Part shown: piece by piece, positions 4,379 through 18,114 of the stretch | Layout of the letters: every line of letters starts with the position of its first letter | Numbering within the stretch: the stretch's first letter is position 1 | Assembly: GCA_902806095.1 (NCBI GenBank) | Contig: CADCVF010000035.1 | Coordinates: 43,888-98,375 of the forward strand | DNA length: 54,488 nt | From: an uncultured Rubrobacteraceae bacterium | GTDB taxonomy: Bacteria > Actinomycetota > Rubrobacteria > Rubrobacterales > Rubrobacteraceae | Reading direction: 5' to 3' | The notes under the pieces: model-generated | What the model saw: only the letters and a program-made list of their open reading frames with translations | Databases searched by the model: none | Told to the model about the DNA's origin: nothing | Position numbers and translations under genes: made by a program

Positions 4379-4508
4379 GAGGCTATTCTATCGCCCACGC
4401 TACTGAAGCAGCGCAAGTAGGATGCCGAAGGCGATCCAGGCAAAACGGTCGCACGCTGTACCCTCCAGCGGTGGATGCTTCGTCAAACACGAGAGAAGTG
4501 CCTATCGA

Positions 4509-4528
4509 CCTCGCCCGCGCGGGCGAGG
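4509..4528. repeat. 20-bp perfect GC-rich palindrome
   Basis: Bases 4509-4528 equal their own reverse complement (arms CCTCGCCCGC / GCGGGCGAGG). It lies in the 260-base gap between the CDF exporter and the small helical gene at 4642, in which I see no supported gene. It may terminate transcription from the minus-strand operon upstream of it. Confidence 0.5.
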
Positions 4529-4641
4529 CCCGCCACTTTATAGCCTGGAGGGGCGCCATCTCAGGGCTCGGCGGCGGAAGGCTGAACGAGTTGGCCGTCG
4601 CCACCGAGGCCATCATTACGGACGTCCTGCTCTCCCCCTTA

Positions 4642-4938
4642 TCAACCTTGTGCAGCGTCCCTCGGGGCAGGTTCGCGGAGGGCCTCCTTGACCTTCTCTT
4701 CTTCCCCTCCGAGGTAGAGGAAGACGTCCTGGGCAAAGCGTACGGCGTGCTCTTCGGGAAGGTTGAGACGCCGGTTTACGAGGACCGACTCAAGCTCCCT
4801 GATGGCTGCATTTGCCATCCCGACCATCGTCTCCGCCTCCCTCAGTGTCTGTTCGATCTCCTCGTCCGAGAGGCCCTGACTCCGCTTCAGTCGGTTCTGG
4901 TGTTCTTCGAGGAAGTGTATGAAGTCCCTGATGCCCAC
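4642..4938 (-). CDS. Small helical protein of unknown function after the BchB-like gene
   Basis: A 98-residue, strongly charged and mostly helical protein (DFIHFLEEHQNRLKRSQGLS, then a Glu-rich second helix and a third helix up to the Pro-rich tail). No family recognised. The start is the GTG at 4938; an in-frame TAA sits just upstream, so it cannot be longer. It begins 19 bases after the stop of the BchB-like gene on the same strand and is probably co-transcribed. It may be a helper of the NB-like complex, which is inference from position only. Confidence 0.65.
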   Translation of the reverse strand: MGIRDFIHFLEEHQNRLKRSQGLSDEEIEQTLREAETMVGMANAAIRELESVLVNRRLNLPEEHAVRFAQDVFLYLGGEEEKVKEALREPAPRDAAQG

Positions 4939-4957
4939 GAGGCAGGATTATATCGGT

Positions 4958-6394
4958 TCAGGAGCGCGACTTTAGGAAGATCTCTCGCGTCACCTCGCCC
5001 GAGCCCTGTCTGCGGGCGCGTTCTTCGGCGAGCCGGCGGGCCCGGGCCCGCAAGAACAGCGGCACCTCTGCCGCCTCTTGCAGTGCCCCGTCCGTCCACT
5101 GCATGCCGGCCTCTCCTGCGGGTTCCACCCTCGCCTTCCGCAGGGCATTGTCGAGCGCGTCGGCAAGGACGCTTGATCCGGCGTAGCCCATAAGCGGTCG
5201 CCCGACGAAGGGTCTGTCGACGACGGGTGGACAGAGGGGGAGGAAGGGCACTCCAAGAGAGTCGGCCACGTCCTGTTCCAAGTGTGTGCCGACGACCAGG
5301 TCGGGCTTCGCGGCTTCGATGCGGGCTGCGACCTCGTCGGGATCGTCCTCGACAAAAGCTCCTTCCGTGAAAGTGTGGGCGTGGAAGAGGAAGTCCCTTT
5401 CGAGGTGCGTGAGATACGTCCCGCAGGTGATGATCTCCAGCCCGACTTCGCGGGCGAGTGCGTAACCCAGACCGAGAGGGTAAGTGAAGTCCCCGAATAT
5501 GGCGACCCTGCGGTTCTGGAAGGTCTCGGGCGGTTCCAGCCGCGCATACCAGGGAAGCTTCGCCGTGCTGGCCAGCTCGGCCCAGATCGTACGCTGCACG
5601 GACTTCGGGTCGAGCTGGCACAGTTCGCCGACGGCCCGCAGGGCTGCCCCCGTTCCTGCGGCGCCGATCATCGGGGTCGTCACCCGCGGCATCCCGAACT
5701 CATCCTGGAGGTAGAGCGTCGCAGACTCCCCGACCTCCCTGTAGAGGAGCACGTTGGCCCACGCGCGCGGGAGGCGGCCAAGGTCTCCCGTGTTCGCTCC
5801 CAAAGGCACCCTGGCGTTTACCTCGACCCCGACCATGTCGAGGAGCCGCTCGGCCTCGGCGTACTCGGCCGCCGCGCCAGGACCGAATATCGGTGGCCCG
5901 AAGAGGTTGACCGTAGGATAAGGGCTCCTCTCGGGCCTGTCTTGCATCCTGGCCTGGATCAGGTCCTCCAGCGCGAGCTCCGCGGCTTCGGTCTCCCTCA
6001 TGCCCGGTTGCTCCCAGGAGAACGTCACCAGTTCGGGGTGTCTTCCTGTCCCTTCTACGTCGGGGAGAGTGGTAGCGGGGATGGTCTCCCCCGAGAGCAG
6101 GGACGTCTCCGAGCGGGCCAGGACGACGATCTCCGTCTTCGGGTGACGCCGGACGACACTAGAGAGATCGCGGACCAGGTTCCCCGGCGCCGTCGAGCTA
6201 TCGCCTCCCTCGCGAAGCGGACTGAGCGTGACCGGCGCCATCTCCCCGGTTCGCTCACGGGCACCGTATAGCGTACGGAAGTACATTTCGCCAGGCAGTG
6301 CCCTGAGCAAGGCGTGCACGCCCCCGATGCTCGCGGCCACCCTCAGGATACCGTAGCTCTGAGGTCCCTCGTAGACGCCGCGCAGGAGCTTCAC
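4958..6394 (-). CDS. BchB/ChlB-like protein (protochlorophyllide reductase subunit B homologue), divergent
   Basis: A 478-residue protein with the whole ChlB/BchB layout. It has an N-terminal domain beginning MKLLRGVYEGPQSYGILRVA, middle blocks NLFGPPIFGPG and LLYREVGESATLYLQDEFGM, then RRVAIFGDFTYPLG, GTHLEQDVADSLGVPFLPLC and the DPOR-specific C-terminal helical domain (TDGALQEAAEVPLFLRARAR). Comparing with remembered Rhodobacter BchB, the cluster ligand Asp36 is Glu36 here, and the catalytic Asp274 position falls in a Leu-Glu-Pro-Pro-Glu stretch. True reductase activity is therefore doubtful. GTG start at 6394, overlapping the stop of the BchN-like gene by 4 bases. No BchL-like ATPase is present in the window. 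Confidence 0.85.
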   Translation of the reverse strand: MKLLRGVYEGPQSYGILRVAASIGGVHALLRALPGEMYFRTLYGARERTGEMAPVTLSPLREGGDSSTAPGNLVRDLSSVVRRHPKTEIVVLARSETSLLSGETIPATTLPDVEGTGRHPELVTFSWEQPGMRETEAAELALEDLIQARMQDRPERSPYPTVNLFGPPIFGPGAAAEYAEAERLLDMVGVEVNARVPLGANTGDLGRLPRAWANVLLYREVGESATLYLQDEFGMPRVTTPMIGAAGTGAALRAVGELCQLDPKSVQRTIWAELASTAKLPWYARLEPPETFQNRRVAIFGDFTYPLGLGYALAREVGLEIITCGTYLTHLERDFLFHAHTFTEGAFVEDDPDEVAARIEAAKPDLVVGTHLEQDVADSLGVPFLPLCPPVVDRPFVGRPLMGYAGSSVLADALDNALRKARVEPAGEAGMQWTDGALQEAAEVPLFLRARARRLAEERARRQGSGEVTREIFLKSRS

Positions 6395-7722
6395 AGGTTC
6401 AGCGAGTCGAGGGTCTCCGCGCGGTCCATGGTACGCACCAGGAGTTCGAGGATGCGACGGGCGCCACCGTAGCCGTAGGGTCCGGCTTCGAGGAAATCAC
6501 GGGGCGAGCGGCACAGGTGTCCGCGGGCGACCAGTGGCAGGTGGAGGACTGGGTTGGAGATCACAACGTCAGGCCTACTCTCGTCGATCCGATTCGTCTG
6601 CCCCCTGTAGTCCGGCGAGACGACGACGTCGACGTCGGGGCCCAGGGCCTGCAGCTCGGCGGCCAGAAAGCGGCGGTCAAGCCGCGGCGCCCCGACCTCG
6701 AGCACGACGGCTCCCGCGTCGGCGAGGAAGCGGGCGAGCGGGATCTCGAACCCCGTGTCGCCGGTGAAGAAAACCCTCTTCCCCCTTATTCGGTTTCTCA
6801 GCACCCCCAGGTCCTCCCACGCAGACCTGGCCCGCACGACCTCGCTGGTCCGCGTTCCGGCTTCCTCTGCCACGTCCTGAACGAAGCGGGCCGTGCCGTC
6901 GACCCCGACGGGCATGAGGGTCTTGACCACCGTTGTCCCGCGTCTCTCGGCGGCCGTCGCCGCCGAGGTCAGGTTCGGGTCCATCACGGCCACCACCGTG
7001 CCCTCCCCAAGGGGCGGAAGCTCGCCCGCACCGGACCCCGGTACGGCCCCTGCAACCTCCACCCCGGCCCTGGAGAGTTCCGCGGCGAGTCCTTGCGCGG
7101 CCCCTGGTATGAGGGTGCCACCGAGCAACACCACGGGGCGCCCGTCATTCGAGTCCGACGCTTCGATGCCTCGTCCCAGCAGGCCTCCGAAGAGCCCACC
7201 GCGCTTCGCCGGAGAGGCCGTCTCCACGAGGTCTGAAGTCTCCCTCTTCGGGCAGAGGTTCACTAGGGCGGCGAGGACACAGTCCTCGAGGTCGGTGGAG
7301 AGGATGCCGGGGACTTCGCGGGGGGCATCGGGGTTGACCACCTCAGAGGGCAGGTCGAGCTTGCGGGCTACGAGCCTGGCCTCGAACTCGGCATCGACCC
7401 CGAGCGATTCCGCTGTTCGTCCCGCCACGAGCAGCACCAGGCTCGTTCCACGGAGTCCGGCGGCACTCTCCACGATCCGGGATGCCAGAAGGCCCTGCTG
7501 CGGTGGGTAGTCGGGGTCGATGATCGCGAAGATCACCCGCTGGTCGCGCCGGGAGGGGTGAAGGTTCGGGGATGGGGCGGCCGGCAGGCACTGGACGAGG
7601 TGCGCTTCGGCCTGAGTACCGATGACGATGACGAGCGCATCAGGAAGCCTCTCAGCCAGGCCATTTACGGCGTGCAGAGGAGGGAGAACGTCCGGTATCC
7701 CCGATTCGTTGAGGATCGTCAC
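6391..7722 (-). CDS. BchN/ChlN-like protein (protochlorophyllide reductase subunit N homologue) lacking cluster cysteines
   Basis: A 443-residue nitrogenase-like alpha-type subunit. The BchN block GTRTCAH is GTQAEAH here (Glu39), the Cys-Pro-Ser-Glu block is G-R-T-A-E-S (Arg102), and the N-terminal segment that carries the first cluster Cys is missing. An in-frame TAG four codons upstream of the GTG start (7722) shows it is not an annotation error. Later blocks remain: KRVFFTGDTGFEIPLARFLA, RPDVVISNPVLHLPLVARGH and the C-terminal GPYGYGGARRILELLVRT. AGGA lies 9 bases before the GTG. It is 63 bases after deoD and overlaps the BchB-like gene (GTGA). It probably pairs with that protein as a heterotetramer; the activity is unknown. 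Confidence 0.82.
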   Translation of the reverse strand: MTILNESGIPDVLPPLHAVNGLAERLPDALVIVIGTQAEAHLVQCLPAAPSPNLHPSRRDQRVIFAIIDPDYPPQQGLLASRIVESAAGLRGTSLVLLVAGRTAESLGVDAEFEARLVARKLDLPSEVVNPDAPREVPGILSTDLEDCVLAALVNLCPKRETSDLVETASPAKRGGLFGGLLGRGIEASDSNDGRPVVLLGGTLIPGAAQGLAAELSRAGVEVAGAVPGSGAGELPPLGEGTVVAVMDPNLTSAATAAERRGTTVVKTLMPVGVDGTARFVQDVAEEAGTRTSEVVRARSAWEDLGVLRNRIRGKRVFFTGDTGFEIPLARFLADAGAVVLEVGAPRLDRRFLAAELQALGPDVDVVVSPDYRGQTNRIDESRPDVVISNPVLHLPLVARGHLCRSPRDFLEAGPYGYGGARRILELLVRTMDRAETLDSLNL

Positions 7723-7785: not shown

Positions 7786-8499
7786 CTAGTTTAAGGCGTA
7801 GAGGGTGTCTAGCGCCAGTGTCATCATATTGTCCACGGCGCTACGCAGGTCCTCGTCGCTGATCCTGACTATCTCGGCGCCGATGGTGTCGGAGACGGTC
7901 AGCAAGCATCCGGCCCTCACGCCGTGCATTGCGGCTATAGTGAAGATCACCGCGGCCTCCATCTCGACGGCGAGCACCCCGAGGTCGTCCCATAACGCCG
8001 CAGGGTCTTCGGTAGGGTCGTAGAACAGGTCGGAGCTGACTACCTGGCCGACGAAGGTCCTTCGCCCGGCGCTCTCTGCCGCGTGGTGGGCGGCGTGGAC
8101 GATGTCGAAGTGGGCCGCCGGGGCGTAGGGGACGCCGCGGGTGATCGAGGAGACCGTTCCGTCCTGCGGGGCCGCCGAGGTCACGACGATGAGATCCCCC
8201 AGACGCAGCTCCCTGCTGTACCCTCCGCAGGTCCCGACCCTGAGCAGATTCTTCGCCCCGAGCTGTATGAGCTCCTCAGCAACGATGGAGGCGCTCGGAC
8301 ACCCCATGCCCGTAGCCTGGACCGAGACCGGCTTGCCCCTGTAAGTGCCCGTATACCCGAGCATCCCACGCTCTTCTGTCACAAGCTTCGCGTCCTCGAA
8401 GAAGGTCTCGGCGATGTACCTCGCCCTCAGGGGGTCACCGGGCAAGAGAACACTCTCCGCGAAATCTCCCGGCTCCGCCCGCACGTGAACAGGGCACAT
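7786..8499 (-). CDS. deoD: Purine-nucleoside phosphorylase, DeoD type
   Basis: A 237-residue hexamer-type PNP. The phosphate-binding VLLPGDPLRARYIAE and VGTCGG segments, the nucleoside-site VEMEAA, and SDT near the C-terminus (LLTVSDTIGAE) are all present; the family uses the Asp of SDT for the purine N7. It cleaves purine (deoxy)nucleosides with phosphate to base and (deoxy)ribose-1-phosphate. The ATG at 8499 is preferred to the GTG at 8526 because AAGGGAG lies 5 bases before it. It lies downstream of deoB and deoA on the same strand, so the three form a nucleoside salvage cluster, with a repeat element between deoA and deoD. Confidence 0.93.
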   Translation of the reverse strand: MCPVHVRAEPGDFAESVLLPGDPLRARYIAETFFEDAKLVTEERGMLGYTGTYRGKPVSVQATGMGCPSASIVAEELIQLGAKNLLRVGTCGGYSRELRLGDLIVVTSAAPQDGTVSSITRGVPYAPAAHFDIVHAAHHAAESAGRRTFVGQVVSSDLFYDPTEDPAALWDDLGVLAVEMEAAVIFTIAAMHGVRAGCLLTVSDTIGAEIVRISDEDLRSAVDNMMTLALDTLYALN

Positions 8500-8520
8500 T
8501 GCGACTCCCTTCGGTCGTCT

Positions 8521-8643
8521 TAGCACTTCAGCAAATCAGCACTTCAGCACGCGCCCTGACGGGCGCTTGTCAGCTTTTCTTTGCTGAAGTGCTGACAAGC
8601 CGCCTGGCGAAGCCCGGCGGCGTGCTGAAATGCTGAAGTGCTA
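8521..8643. repeat. Interspersed palindromic element, copy B (between deoA and deoD)
   Basis: Outer arms TAGCACTTCAGCA (8521-8533) and TGCTGAAGTGCTA (8631-8643) are perfect reverse complements. Inside are CTTGTCAGC / GCTGACAAG and a GC hairpin (GCGCCC-TGAC-GGGCGC). It begins 3 bases after the deoA stop on the minus strand and could fold as one cruciform-like structure. Confidence 0.75.
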
Positions 8644-8646
8644 TTT

Positions 8647-9921
8647 TCACAGGCTATCCAGAATAACAGGGGGAGGCTCTACGGGCTCGTCGGAGACTTC
8701 GAGCGCCTTTAGGACGAGGCGTCCGGCTCGCTCCGCTTCGCGTTCGCCGTAGAGGCGGGCTACGGGTTGGCCTTCTCGGAGAGGGTCTCCTGGTTTTACG
8801 AGGATTTCGATGCCTGAGCCGGGGTCGATGCGGTCGTCCTTTCTCTTGCGGCCGGCACCTAGAGCGAGGGCTGCGTTGCCGATGTCCGATGCCCCGAAAC
8901 GGGCTACGCAGCCGCCTCGCGGGGACTTTACTTCGCTGACCTCAGCCGAGACGGGGAGGTCTTCGAGGGCATCTGCGTCGCCGCCCTGGGCCCTGACGAA
9001 CTCGCGGAACTTCTCGTAGGCCGCACCCGAGGAGAGCGCGTTTGTGACGGCGGTGGCTCCTTCGGTGATGCCCTTGAGATCGAGCAGACGGGTGGCGACG
9101 TGGTTGACCTTGCTGGCGAGGTCGTCGGGGACGGGCTCGTTCTTGAGTAGCAGGACGCTCTCGCGGATTTCCAGGGCGTTGCCGATAGCGCTCCCAAGAG
9201 GGTTGTCCATGACCGTGATCAGGGCCGACGCGTCGATGCCGAGGTCCTCGCTCAGGCGTACGAGGAGGTCGGCCAGCTCGCGGGCTTCTTCTGTCGTCTT
9301 CATGAACGCACCCGAACCGCGCTTCACGTCGTAGAGGAGGTGGCCCGCTCCCGTGGCAACCTTCTTGGAGACGATCGATGAGCCGATAAGCGGCAGAGAG
9401 TCCACCGTGCCCGTCGTGTCGCGGAGGGCGTAGATCTCTTTGTCCGCCGGCGCGAGGTCCCCAGCCTCGATTATGGCGAGCCCGACCTCCTCGACCTGGT
9501 TCCTGAACTGTTCCTCGGAGAGGCTGCACGAGAAGCCGGGGATAGACTCCAGCTTGTCTACCGTACCGCCGGTCGCACCGAGGCCGCGCCCCGAAAGCTT
9601 GGCCACGGGAGCCCCGCAGGCCGCCACAATAGGAAGCGCCGTCAGGCTCACCTTGTCCCCCACGCCGCCCGTTGAGTGCTTGTCCACGCATTCGGGGAAG
9701 GAGTAAGTCTTGCCGGATTCGGCCATCGCGCGCGTCAGGGCGAGCGTCTCCCCATAACCCATTCCCTGGATGAAGATCGCCATGAGCAGCGAGGCCATCT
9801 GGTAGTCGTGCACTTCTCCCGTGGTGTAGCCTTCCACCACGTCCCTGATGAGCCCGTCGGAGAGTTCCCCGCCGAACTTCTTGGTCTCTATAGCATCCAG
9901 TATCACGTTCCCTGAGCCCAC
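8647..9921 (-). CDS. deoA: Pyrimidine-nucleoside (thymidine) phosphorylase
   Basis: A 424-residue enzyme of the thymidine/pyrimidine-nucleoside phosphorylase family. The catalytic DKHSTGGVGDK motif sits near residue 80. The Lys/Ser phosphate site continues through SGRGLGATGGTVDKLESIPG, and DVKRGSGAFMKT follows. The C-terminal domain (residues about 345-424) is the usual alpha/beta barrel-sandwich part. It converts thymidine, deoxyuridine or uridine plus phosphate to base and sugar-1-phosphate. The GTG at 9921 has AGGGA 5 bases upstream. It follows deoB by 39 bases and feeds deoxyribose-1-phosphate to it. Confidence 0.93.
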   Translation of the reverse strand: MGSGNVILDAIETKKFGGELSDGLIRDVVEGYTTGEVHDYQMASLLMAIFIQGMGYGETLALTRAMAESGKTYSFPECVDKHSTGGVGDKVSLTALPIVAACGAPVAKLSGRGLGATGGTVDKLESIPGFSCSLSEEQFRNQVEEVGLAIIEAGDLAPADKEIYALRDTTGTVDSLPLIGSSIVSKKVATGAGHLLYDVKRGSGAFMKTTEEARELADLLVRLSEDLGIDASALITVMDNPLGSAIGNALEIRESVLLLKNEPVPDDLASKVNHVATRLLDLKGITEGATAVTNALSSGAAYEKFREFVRAQGGDADALEDLPVSAEVSEVKSPRGGCVARFGASDIGNAALALGAGRKRKDDRIDPGSGIEILVKPGDPLREGQPVARLYGEREAERAGRLVLKALEVSDEPVEPPPVILDSL

Positions 9922-9960: not shown

Positions 9961-11154
9961 CTAGCGGGTGTGCGGATCTCCGGCTCCCTGCGCGACGCTC
10001 CTGCCTGGAAGCCCGCCTTGGTCGACCCCGAGCCATGCGGCGACGGAGGCTCCGACATCGGAGAAGCTTTCGCGAATGCCGAGGCTGTGAGGTTCACCAC
10101 CGCCGACGATAAGGAGCGGGACGCGTTCGCGGGTGTGGTCCGTTCCTTTGAAGGTCGGATCGTTGCCGTGGTCCGCGGTGATGATTGCGAGGTCTTCTGC
10201 GGTTAGTGCATCGAGCAACTCAGTGAGCCTGTCGTCGAAGCACTCGATATTTTTGGCCATACCCTCAGGGTCGCGACGGTGGCCGTATTTGGCGTCGAAG
10301 TCAACGAGGTTTGCGAAGATCAGGCCCGACTCGACTCGGCCCAGGGCGCCGAGAATTGCGTCGACTTTGGCCGAGTCGTCGGGCGGGGCGGGTAGATGCT
10401 CTGTAATGCCACGGCCGTCGAAGATGTCCCTTATCTTGCCGACGGCCATGGTCTCATAGCCTGCGTTCTTTATGCGGTCCAGATAGGTCTCCGATGGCGG
10501 GGTTATGCCGTAGTCGTGACGATTCTCGTTCTCCCGTTCGTAGGAGCCGGGTTCGCCGTGGAAGGGACGGGCGATGACGCGCTCGACCATGATCTCACCC
10601 TCCCCGATGAGCATTTCGTGGGCCTTTTGGCAAGCTTCGTATAGTTCGTCTAATGGAATAACGCTTGTATTGGCGGCGATCTGGAAGACGGAGTCGGCTG
10701 AGGTGTAGATGATCCAGGCTCCCGTCTTCTCCTGCTCAGGACCGAGCTCTTCTATGATCTGGGTCCCCGAAGCTGGCCTGTTGCCAAGGATACCGCGTCC
10801 CGTCTCGTTCTCGAAGCGTTCCAATACGTCTTCAGGAAAGCCTTCCGGGTAGGTAGGCAGCGGGTCTTCGAGTACAAGTCCCATCATCTCCCAGTGTCCT
10901 GTGAGGGTGGCCTTGGCCGCTGATAGCTCTACCATTAGCCCGTGGGAAGCCTTGGGAGACTCGGCTGGCGGCAGGCCCTCGATCTCCTCGGCATTGCCGA
11001 GCCCGAGGGCCTGGAGGTTCGGCGCCCTGAGACCGCCCACGGCCCTCGCTGTGTTCGCCAGGGTGTTGGCGTCCTGGTCGCCGAAGTCAGCGGCGTCGGG
11101 GGCGTTGCCGGCGCCGAGGCCGTCGAGCACGATCACGACCACCCTGCGTCCCAT
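9961..11154 (-). CDS. deoB: Phosphopentomutase
   Basis: A 397-residue member of the alkaline phosphatase superfamily. The metal-binding start VVIVLDGLGAGNAPDA, the phosphorylated Thr in DANTLANTARAVG, and the C-terminal metal ligands in FANLVDFDAKYGHRRD and ITADHGNDPT are present. It interconverts (deoxy)ribose-1-phosphate and -5-phosphate and so links nucleoside breakdown to the pentose phosphate pathway. The start is the ATG at 11154, because AAAGGAGG lies 3 bases upstream; the GTG at 11169 would overlap that site. First gene of the deoB-deoA-deoD series. Confidence 0.94.
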   Translation of the reverse strand: MGRRVVVIVLDGLGAGNAPDAADFGDQDANTLANTARAVGGLRAPNLQALGLGNAEEIEGLPPAESPKASHGLMVELSAAKATLTGHWEMMGLVLEDPLPTYPEGFPEDVLERFENETGRGILGNRPASGTQIIEELGPEQEKTGAWIIYTSADSVFQIAANTSVIPLDELYEACQKAHEMLIGEGEIMVERVIARPFHGEPGSYERENENRHDYGITPPSETYLDRIKNAGYETMAVGKIRDIFDGRGITEHLPAPPDDSAKVDAILGALGRVESGLIFANLVDFDAKYGHRRDPEGMAKNIECFDDRLTELLDALTAEDLAIITADHGNDPTFKGTDHTRERVPLLIVGGGEPHSLGIRESFSDVGASVAAWLGVDQGGLPGRSVAQGAGDPHTR

Positions 11155-11254
11155 CAGCCTCCTTTCCACTCCTGGATCATCTTAGCGCCTTCATCCGTTC
11201 GTCGCCTGGCTACGTAGGGTAAGTAATACTCCAGACTACGAGACGAGGAGTAGC

Positions 11255-14268: not shown

Positions 14269-14318
14269 TTGAGAACGGAGCGGACGCACTTTACAATACA
14301 CATCAGGAGGTGTATTGT
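14269..14318 (+). promoter_or_regulatory. vapBC promoter and palindromic operator
   Basis: TTGAGA (14269-14274), a 17-base spacer and TACAAT (14292-14297) form a near-consensus promoter. ACAATACAC (14293-14301) and GTGTATTGT (14310-14318) are perfect arms with an 8-base spacer. The palindrome covers the -10 and the AGGAGG ribosome site, so a VapBC complex bound there would block both transcription and translation start. Confidence 0.8.
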
Positions 14319-14319
14319 T

Positions 14320-14520
14320 ATGCGCACGAACATCGTGCTTGACGACGAGCTGGTTGAGGAGGCGTTCCGGCACTCGGATGCGAAGACGAAGCGGGAGTTG
14401 GTTGACCAGGCCTTGCGGGAGTTCGTCGAGAACCGCAAGCGCAGGGACATCCGGGAGTTGCGGGGGAAGATCACGTTCCATCCCGGCTACGACTACAAAG
14501 CGTTACGCGAAGGGAAGTAG
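14320..14520 (+). CDS. vapB: VapB-type antitoxin (ribbon-helix-helix)
   Basis: A 66-residue antitoxin. MRTNIVLDDELVEEAFRHSD is the ribbon-helix-helix DNA-binding half; the helical ELVDQALREFVENRKRRDIR dimerises; the tail GKITFHPGYDYKALREGK would wrap the toxin. AGGAGG lies 9 bases before the ATG. It is expected to bind VapC and to repress its own promoter through the palindrome at 14293-14318. The toxin gene follows with only two bases between. Confidence 0.88.
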   Translation: MRTNIVLDDELVEEAFRHSDAKTKRELVDQALREFVENRKRRDIRELRGKITFHPGYDYKALREGK

Positions 14521-14522
14521 CC

Positions 14523-14921
14523 CTGTACCTGGTAGACACCTCGGTGTGGATCGATTACCTGGCGGGGACGGAGACGGAGGCCACGGGACGCTTCGCGGAG
14601 TTATTGAACCGGGGTTACGTGGTAGGACTCACGAGCGTCGTGTACCAGGAGATCGTCCAAGGCGTCTCTTCGCGGCGGGAGTTCGAGCAAACATCCGAGT
14701 ACTTGGGCTCCCAGACCTTCTACCATCCGCAGGATTCCGTCGGGAGCTACCGGGAGGCAGCGCGCATGTACTTCGACTGTCGCCGCGCGGGAATAACCAT
14801 CCGTAGCTCCACAGATTGCCTCGTCGCCCGCGTAGCTATCGAGCACGGCCTGATGCTGCTCCACGACGACCGGGACTTCGAGGCTATGGCCAGCGTGGTC
14901 CCAGACCTAGCGCTCGCCTGA
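14523..14921 (+). CDS. vapC: VapC-type PIN-domain ribonuclease toxin with probable CTG start
   Basis: A 132-residue PIN domain. The catalytic acids are at the start (LYLVDTSVWIDYLAG, Asp5), in the middle (VVYQEIVQG, Glu), and near the end (SSTDCLVARVAIEHG, Asp, and LHDDRDFEAMA, Asp/Asp). VapC toxins cut tRNA or rRNA with Mg2+ or Mn2+. The only start keeping the first catalytic Asp is CTG at 14523, with GAAGGGAAG 5 bases ahead; the GTG at 14544 would lose it. Translation is probably coupled to vapB, whose stop is 2 bases upstream. Confidence 0.85.
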   Translation: MYLVDTSVWIDYLAGTETEATGRFAELLNRGYVVGLTSVVYQEIVQGVSSRREFEQTSEYLGSQTFYHPQDSVGSYREAARMYFDCRRAGITIRSSTDCLVARVAIEHGLMLLHDDRDFEAMASVVPDLALA

Positions 14922-15168: not shown

Positions 15169-18114
15169 ATGGCGAACGATCCTTTCAGCGCGCGCAAGAA
15201 GCAATCCACCGGCTCGCAAGAGGTAGAACTCTTCAGCCTCGAAACGCTGGACGAACAGGCAGACGGAGACGTCTTCTCCCTTCCGTTCTCCATCAGGGTG
15301 ATGCTGGAGTCGCTCCTGCGCAACGCCGGTGGAAAGTTCGTCTCGCGGGAGGACGTCGAAGCATTGGCTTCCTGGCCTGATTCGGTCGGCGACGAGCTTG
15401 CTTATCTGCCTGCCAGGGTCGTCATGCAGGACTTCACCGGGGTACCTGCTGTAGTCGACCTTGCGGCGATGCGGAGCGCGATGGAGAACGTGGGCGGAGA
15501 TCCAGGGAAGATCAACCCGCTCGTTCCGACCGACCTGGTTATCGACCACTCGGTCCAGGTCGACGCTTTCGGATCTCCGGCTGCCCTCCAGTTCAACGCC
15601 GAGCGCGAGTTCGAACGCAACCGCGAGCGCTACGAGTTTCTTAAGTGGGGCCAGCAGGCCTTCGATAACTTCTCGGTCGTCCCGCCAGCCACAGGTATCA
15701 TCCACCAGGTCAACCTTGAGTACCTGGCTAAGGGTGTGATCGTGAAAGATGGAGTGGCGATGCCGGATACGCTCGTCGGCACTGACAGCCACACCACCAT
15801 GATCAACGGTCTCGGCGTGCTCGGCTGGGGTGTCGGGGGCATCGAGGCCGAGGCCGTCACCCTGGGCCAGCCCTACTACATGCTCGTCCCCGAGGTGATC
15901 GGCTTCAAGCTTACCGGCGCCCTCAGGGAGGGTGTCACGGCCACGGACCTTGTACTGACCGTCACCCAGATGCTTCGCTCCCACGGCGTGGTGGGCAAGT
16001 TCGTGGAGTTCTACGGTGAGGGACTCAGCAAGCTCTCTCTACCCGACCGGGCCACCATCGCGAACATGTCCCCCGAGTTCGGGGCGACGTGCACGTTCTT
16101 CCCCGTTGACATCGAGACGCTTCGCTACCTGCGCGGGACGGGCCGCGACGAGGAGCTCGTCGGGCTGGTCGAGGCTTACAGCAAGGAGCAGGGCCTCTGG
16201 CGTACGGACGAGACGCCCGAGCCGCGCTTCTCGGAGACGTTGGATCTCGACCTGGAGTCGGTCGAGGCGAGTCTCGCCGGCCCGCGGCGCCCGCAGGACA
16301 GGGTCGCTCTCGACGACATGCAGCCTTCCTTCAGGCAGGCGCTGGCCGAGATGGTGGACCCCGACCACCCGCTCCTCGGGAACGGTTACGAGGACACTTA
16401 CGATCGTGCCGACGAAGAATCCTTCCCCGCGAGCGACACCCCGAACCCCGACATACTCGGCGCCCGCCGTGGGCCCAACGAGGCTGAGGGCAAGGAGGGC
16501 GGTGCTGTCTCCAAGGGTGAGAGCCACACCGCGGACGACACTGAGTCTTTCCCCGCGAGCGACACCCCTGCAGGCGCATCTGGTGTGAGCAATGAGGATG
16601 GAGGAGACCCCACGTCAGGCGGCGAGCCCGAGAACGGCAAGACGCAGGCCGAGCCTTCGGGCGCTATTACCGTTACGGTCGACGGAGAGGAACTCTATCT
16701 CAGGCACGGCTCCGCCGTGATCGCCGCCATAACCAGCTGCACCAACACCTCCAATCCTTCCGTAATGATGGGTGCCGGACTCCTGGCAAAAAAGGCCGTC
16801 GAGAGGGGGCTCTCCGTCGCGCCGCACGTCAAGACAAGCCTCGCGCCCGGGTCCAAGGTCGTCACGGAGTACCTGCAAACCTCGGGACTCCTGGATCCCC
16901 TGGAGCAATTGAGGTTCGACGTCGTCGGCTACGGGTGCACGACGTGTATAGGTAACTCAGGTCCGCTTGCCGAGGAGATCTCCGCCGCCGTAGAGGAGAA
17001 CGACCTCGTGGTCGCGGCCGTTCTCTCGGGCAACAGGAACTTCGAGGGTCGCATCAACCCCGACGTCCGTGCGAACTACCTGGCCTCTCCGCCGCTAGTC
17101 GTCGCCTACGCCCTGGCAGGCACGGTGGACATAGACCTCTCGAAGGACCCGATAGGCGAGGACAATGGTGGCAACCCCGTGTATCTCCAGGACATCTGGC
17201 CTTCACAGGAGGAGGTGGCAAGGGAGATCGAGAACGCCCTCGACCCCAACATCTACAAGGAACAGTACGCTAACGTGTACACGGGCAACGAGCAGTGGAA
17301 CGACGTGGAAGTGCCTAGCGGCGACCTCTACGAATGGGACCCCGACTCGACCTACATCCAGGAGCCCTCGTTCTTCAAGGACATGGGCCCCGAGCCCGAA
17401 GACCTGGAGGACATAGAGGGCGCACGCGTCCTCGTGAGAGTCGGGGACTCTGTGACCACCGACCACATCTCACCCGCCGGCGCCATCCCCTCGAAGATGC
17501 CGGCTGGGCAGTACCTGATACAGAAGGGCGTGGATCCGCGCGACTTCAACTCCTACGGCTCCAGGCGCGGCAACCACGAGGTCATGGTGCGCGGTACGTT
17601 CGGCAACATCAGGCTCCGCAACCAGCTCGTGGACAAAGAGGGCGGCTACACCCTCCAATTCCCTGACGGCGAAGAGACCACAATCTACGAGGCGAGCCTG
17701 AAGTACGAAGAGGAAGACGTGCCCCTCGTGGTGCTCGCCGGTAAAGAATACGGCTCAGGCTCGTCGCGCGACTGGGCTGCGAAGGGCTCGTTCCTGCTCG
17801 GGGTACGGGCCGTTATCGCCGAGAGCTTCGAGCGCATCCACCGCTCGAACCTGATCGGCATGGGCGTCCTCCCGCTACAGTACGCAGAAGGCGAGAGCGC
17901 AGAATCCCTAGGATTGAGCGGACACGAGTCCTTCGCCATCGCCGGCCTCGCCGGCCTCGAGCCCGGCAAGCAGTTGACCGTGAAGGTCAAGGGCGACAAT
18001 GGCGAAGAGAAGGAGTTCGAGGTAATGGCGCGGGTGGACTCCCCGGTCGAGGTCGAGTATCTCCGTAACGGCGGCATCTTGCAGACCGTCCTGCGCCAGA
18101 TGCTCGGAGAGTAG
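15169..18114 (+). CDS. acnA: Aconitate hydratase A with a ~100-residue acidic insert
   Basis: A 981-residue AcnA/IRP1-type aconitase that interconverts citrate and isocitrate in the TCA cycle. The [4Fe-4S] ligands are Cys524 ([10 protein letters not shown]) and Cys590/Cys593 ([10 protein letters not shown]). [12 protein letters not shown]-type [12 protein letters not shown] and the swivelling C-terminal domain are intact. Between domains, residues about 400-498 are an acidic, Pro/Ser/Gly-rich insert. It holds two copies of an ESFPASDTP motif (415-425 and 457-467), making the protein longer than the usual 890-940. GAAAGAGG lies 9 bases before the ATG. It starts a plus-strand run with the next two genes. 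Confidence 0.95.

Follow-up and report, generated by a model that had tools for sequence, protein, structure and literature searches.

A cluster-less BchN/BchB-like gene pair conserved in a predicted nucleoside-salvage operon of the Rubrobacteraceae

Metal clusters are the defining feature of the nitrogenase superfamily, and a locus in a Rubrobacteraceae genome raises the question of what a gene pair of this superfamily does when none of its cluster ligands is in place. We analyzed a window of 54,488 nucleotides (the whole stretch of DNA under study) from contig C35 of Rubrobacteraceae genome G000. Three consecutive genes occupy positions 4642-7722 of the minus strand: N, encoding a cluster-less BchN-like protein of 443 aa (6391..7722); B, encoding a cluster-less BchB-like protein of 478 aa (4958..6394), the reading frame of which overlaps that of N by 4 bp; and S, a family-specific third gene encoding a protein of 98 aa (4642..4938) that is predicted to form three helices. 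The in-frame stop that an earlier note on this DNA had placed just upstream of N was read directly as a TAG four codons 5' of the start. At 4471-4640 of the plus strand is a convergent gene remnant, the intact form of which (about 119 aa, belonging to no Pfam family) lies downstream of S in several relatives (for example, at 8042-8401 of locus L050). Also on the plus strand of the window are a PIN-domain toxin-like gene (approximately 14310-14921) preceded by a short VapB-like open reading frame, likely a toxin-antitoxin pair, and an aconitase gene (15169-18114) with a long low-complexity insert in the middle of the protein, at about residues 350-510, with a repeated ESFPASDTP motif.

N and B were recognized in the earlier note as relatives of the DPOR N and B subunits, the B-specific C-terminal domain included, and profile searches agreed. 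N matched the DPOR_bchN model (TIGR01279) with an E-value of 8.5e-63, and B matched the BchB models with E-values of 1.1e-132 (NF002789) and 6.1e-80; all of these matches fell under the equivalog cut-offs. B also matched PF00148 (2.7e-45) and retained the C-terminal PCP_red domain (PF08369, 1e-8; 4976..5098, minus strand) at 35.5 bits, above the cut-off of 32.5. The top matches of both proteins among solved structures were DPOR chains, and neither nitrogenase, NifEN nor COR (BchYZ) was the best sequence match for N or B, their matches being far weaker than those of BchN and BchB. When the AlphaFold2 monomer of N (mean pLDDT 82) was compared with known structures, the best matches were all DPOR N chains, with Z-scores of 33-38, and the group ranking after them (nitrogenase and NifEN chains) did not exceed 27. 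N is predicted from this model to have the DPOR N fold. Fold, length, the pairing of N and B genes, and PCP_red are common to the proteins studied here and DPOR NB (BchN-BchB or ChlN-ChlB; PDB 2xdq, 3aek, and 8vqh). In contrast to DPOR NB, N and B of the Rubrobacteraceae are without the Cys3Asp ligands, Asp274, the pocket segment, BchL, and BchM, and they lie in a different operon. Approximately half of the columns that are invariant among DPOR-type references were kept (31 kept and 31 wholly lost in N, 29 kept and 32 wholly lost in B). In 4 genomes of the window's own genus (loci L009, L011, L014, and L016), B ends near residue 420, without PCP_red, and S is retained.

The [4Fe-4S] cluster of DPOR is held by 3 Cys of N and 1 Asp of B (PMC7948495, PMC5443842). 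All four ligands were substituted in every Rubrobacteraceae member with data (up to 30 genomes in 13 genera). Alignment to DPOR bore out the replacement of the second and third Cys of N by Glu39 (7606..7608, minus strand; Glu or Asp in 26/26 sequences) and Arg102 (7417..7419, minus strand; Arg in 23/27, otherwise His, Leu, or Trp), and of the Asp ligand of B, at BchB Asp36, by Glu36 (6287..6289, minus strand; Glu in 30/30). The first Cys was another matter. The earlier note had the N-terminal segment with this residue missing from N; however, the DPOR segment (E)VFCGL aligns with DVLPPL, such that the segment is present and the Cys is substituted, by Pro14 in the window (7681..7683, minus strand) and by Ser, Pro, His, or Ala across the family. 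What N lacks at its N-terminus is only the 20 or so variable residues preceding this segment. A further substitution, absent from the earlier note, affects the "extra" Cys95 of BchB, the position of which is taken by Glu96 in B (6107..6109, minus strand; Glu or Asp in 30/30). Two new invariant Arg of B complete a set of charged residues at or adjoining the old ligand positions: Arg94, two residues before the Cys95 position (6113..6115, minus strand), and Arg31, five residues before the Asp36 position (6302..6304, minus strand). At the cluster site, the family alignments showed no other conserved Cys in place of the lost ones, and no conserved His or Cys had been gained there. Conserved Cys sit elsewhere, namely N-C404 (29/29), B-C259 (30/30), and B-C388 (28/30).

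The substrate site has been altered as well. The absence of an Asp at the position of the BchB proton donor, Asp274, held on alignment: B has Pro288 there (5531..5533, minus strand), and the family has Pro, Ser, Arg, Val, Thr, or Ala at this variable position but never Asp. The backbone of BchB Gly409-Leu410 may hydrogen-bond the propionate of the substrate (PMC4157233). The segment of BchB that makes this contact, WVHPL-MGLEEHL, which holds residues 408-410 of R. capsulatus, is deleted throughout the family, with the junction in B at 5150..5161 of the minus strand.

Genes for the electron donor and for chlorophyll synthesis were sought beyond the window, in 39 family genomes. No BchL-like gene is found in the window, in agreement with the earlier note, and the genome-wide search for such a partner was likewise negative: BchL (TIGR01281) reached at best 33.6 bits against a cut-off of 345 and BchM at best 60 bits against 158.9, in searches whose cut-offs were each passed by 1 of 14 named control genomes. 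Searches of the 39 genomes with the NifH/BchL Pfam model found no NifH-like Fe protein, the best match (43.8 bits) being ParA-like, and the N-B-S operon contains no dedicated reductase. A CobN/BchH-type chelatase is present in most family genomes; it was undetected in G009, G021, G029, and G019, which are 96-99% complete and all carry N, B, and S. Rubrobacter genomes have been reported to carry no bacteriochlorophyll genes besides B and N (PMC7901476), whose presence there is described as no sign of phototrophy (PMC7901476, PMC9561532). The absence of the ligands, of BchL, and of BchM together argues against the hint of actinobacterial photosynthesis that has been drawn in print from Rubrobacter BchB and BchN.

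N and B occur in 13 genera of Rubrobacteraceae, and no pair with these features was found outside the family in a sample of 396 genomes of the phylum. S was present in 34 of these 396 genomes, all of them Rubrobacteraceae; the five family genomes from which it was missing are fragmentary and are also the ones without N and B. The 98-residue helical gene to which the earlier note had drawn attention is a conserved third gene co-occurring with N and B, and its product was modeled by AlphaFold2 as a three-helix bundle (monomer, pLDDT 89.3). No Pfam or NCBIfam family matched S above the cut-off. Homology of S to PDB proteins was considered and rejected, as the matches were weak and of a generic helical-bundle kind (at best E 0.013 by sequence and E 0.068 by Foldseek, the latter to mite allergens). 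All three genes are under purifying selection. The Nei-Gojobori dN/dS ratios were 0.16 for N, 0.21 for B, and 0.36 for S in one pair of genomes and 0.16, 0.18, and 0.16, respectively, in another, and the family alignments had a mean column identity of 61-71%. In the complete genome of Rubrobacter marinus (L058, G030), apparent frameshifts interrupt deoD as well as N; these may be sequencing errors.

The neighbors of the trio are genes of nucleoside phosphorolysis. Directly upstream of N on the minus strand is a deoD-type purine-nucleoside phosphorylase gene (7786..8526; NF004489, 252 bits, cut-off 230), preceded in turn by a deoA-type pyrimidine/thymidine phosphorylase gene (8647..9921; TIGR02644, 465.5 bits, cut-off 409) and a deoB phosphopentomutase gene (9961..11169; TIGR01696, 430 bits, cut-off 341), which belongs to the same operon in G000 but not in every genus. 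The order deoA-deoD-N-B-S, on one strand, was found in 28/28 loci showing all five genes, with 38-118 bp between deoD and N. Since this order is kept in all 28 loci, the N-B-S trio is placed in the nucleoside-salvage operon, as its predicted distal part; what the earlier note had only as a neighboring salvage cluster is a conserved context. DeoB, adjacent in the window, lies kilobases away in several genera, which indicates that the linkage of deoA-deoD-N-B-S is tighter than general gene order. A Na+ nucleoside transporter gene (PF07662, 265 bits) adjoins deoB in some genera. DeoD is a single-copy gene in G000 and nearly all relatives (the one second copy, 53% identical, is in G017), and family genomes without N are also without a clear deoD. 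The phosphorylases and the mutase are those of known Deo-type nucleoside catabolism operons (deoA, deoB, deoD), from which the Rubrobacteraceae operon differs in ending with N-B-S. We hold a nucleoside role of N-B-S, as read from gene order, with moderate confidence; gene order can also mirror co-regulation without common biochemistry.

Rubrobacter homologues of BchB and BchN have been published (Gupta and Khadka 2016, Photosynth Res 127:201, known here via citing papers); these are the same genes, of the same family, as N and B. The direction argued there, as relayed by PMC7203096, is that Rubrobacter holds an ancestral, pre-photosynthetic form. In the papers that we read, we found no description of the substituted cluster ligands, the deleted pocket segment, the S gene, or the association with deoA-deoD; the conserved S and the deoA-deoD linkage are new here. 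In our tree, the Rubrobacteraceae N and B formed one clade outside the photosynthetic DPOR sequences used, on a stem of 1.23 substitutions per site; the tree is small and unrooted, without COR and nitrogenase outgroups and without deep DPOR sampling. This placement agrees with an ancestral N/B that never carried a cluster. However, every DPOR sequence used has the ligands intact, as do the actinobacterial L-N-B sets of genomes G040 and G223, and a long stem is expected after a change of function. Because all other members keep the ligands, their loss is the simpler history, although from thin sampling, and we regard the never-clustered ancestor as quite improbable.

The two actinobacterial sets are BchL/N/B-like relatives from genomes without detected CobN/BchH; they differ from the Rubrobacteraceae in that an L protein is present and the Cys and Asp ligands are intact. 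The set of G223 (L085, 7106-10632) is a complete L-N-B set beside genes recognized by eye as cytochrome c biogenesis-like, and it is possibly a DPOR-like system outside chlorophyll synthesis. The set of G040 (L073, 7096-10375) is more divergent, has a B without PCP_red, and stands beside a methyltransferase gene and a gene for an Fe-S membrane protein.

Taken together, the loss of all ligands throughout the family, the lack of BchL, and the conservation of the genes lend good support to the cluster-free reading of NB given in the earlier note, and the N-B complex is likely both cluster-free and non-redox. N and B would descend from a DPOR-type (BchNB-like) ancestor, with the [4Fe-4S] cluster and the partnership with the L protein gone. 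Where N meets B, the former cluster site would have become a charged one, made up of B-Glu36, B-Glu/Asp96, and N-Glu/Asp39 with B-Arg31, B-Arg94, and usually N-Arg102, which probably form a network of salt bridges and so keep the interface together. The remodeled interface cleft may bind a small ligand other than protochlorophyllide. The models cover monomers of N and S, and it is from the alignment that we read both the cleft and the salt bridges. S would probably join N and B in a stable N-B(-S) complex that may bind, sense, or channel a substrate or product of deoA/deoD/deoB phosphorolysis, or scaffold those enzymes; ligand binding, sensing, or scaffolding by N-B with S as a third subunit is our guess. 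The account that we tentatively favor, at somewhat under even chances, is a cluster-free, non-redox N-B(-S) complex of DPOR descent that serves nucleoside phosphorolysis through a remodeled cleft and a small ligand. A version that says more, and which we hold with less confidence, is that a metal-free heteromer of the nitrogenase superfamily has become an accessory of phosphorolysis, its Fe-S site turned into a salt-bridge interface, its porphyrin cleft fitted to a nucleoside-related ligand, and S added as a new subunit.

Other explanations must be weighed against this one. The carboxylates at the old cluster site could hold a metal, and the invariant N-C404 and B-C259 could bind something not recognized here. 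N-B would then have a center of iron or another metal, at B-E36, B-E/D96, and N-E/D39 or at N-C404, B-C259, and B-C388, and would act on a substrate related to nucleosides by redox or hydrolytic chemistry. Three conserved carboxylates on former cluster or near-cluster positions, together with the three conserved Cys, speak for such a center, which we nevertheless consider unlikely, given that the site has gained neither His nor Cys, that no reductase accompanies the genes, and that the new invariant Arg beside the carboxylates are a better fit to salt bridges. The earlier note had proposed a complex that binds, carries, or senses a tetrapyrrole without redox chemistry. Its DPOR ancestry and the chelatase of most family genomes would suit that role, and it is possible; it is disfavored, and rather less probable than a metal center, by the deletion of the segment with Gly409-Leu410 and the loss of Asp274, by the four near-complete genomes that have N, B, and S and no detected chelatase, and by conserved neighbors that are nucleoside genes rather than tetrapyrrole genes. 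Least probable of all, at a very small chance, is that N and B are decaying relicts of a lost chlorophyll pathway, a view already disfavored. The lost catalytic residues, and the loss of PCP_red from B in four genomes of the window's genus, are what decay could leave behind; purifying selection, the column identity of 61-71%, the unvarying order of the genes, and the conservation of S as an additional gene are against it.

If the preferred reading of N-B(-S) as a cluster-free complex is true, a conserved, selected branch without clusters in a non-photosynthetic family of soil bacteria would mean that the fold of this superfamily is reusable without metal clusters. It would also offer a link to the recycling of nucleosides that can be tested, in a group some species of which tolerate radiation and desiccation.
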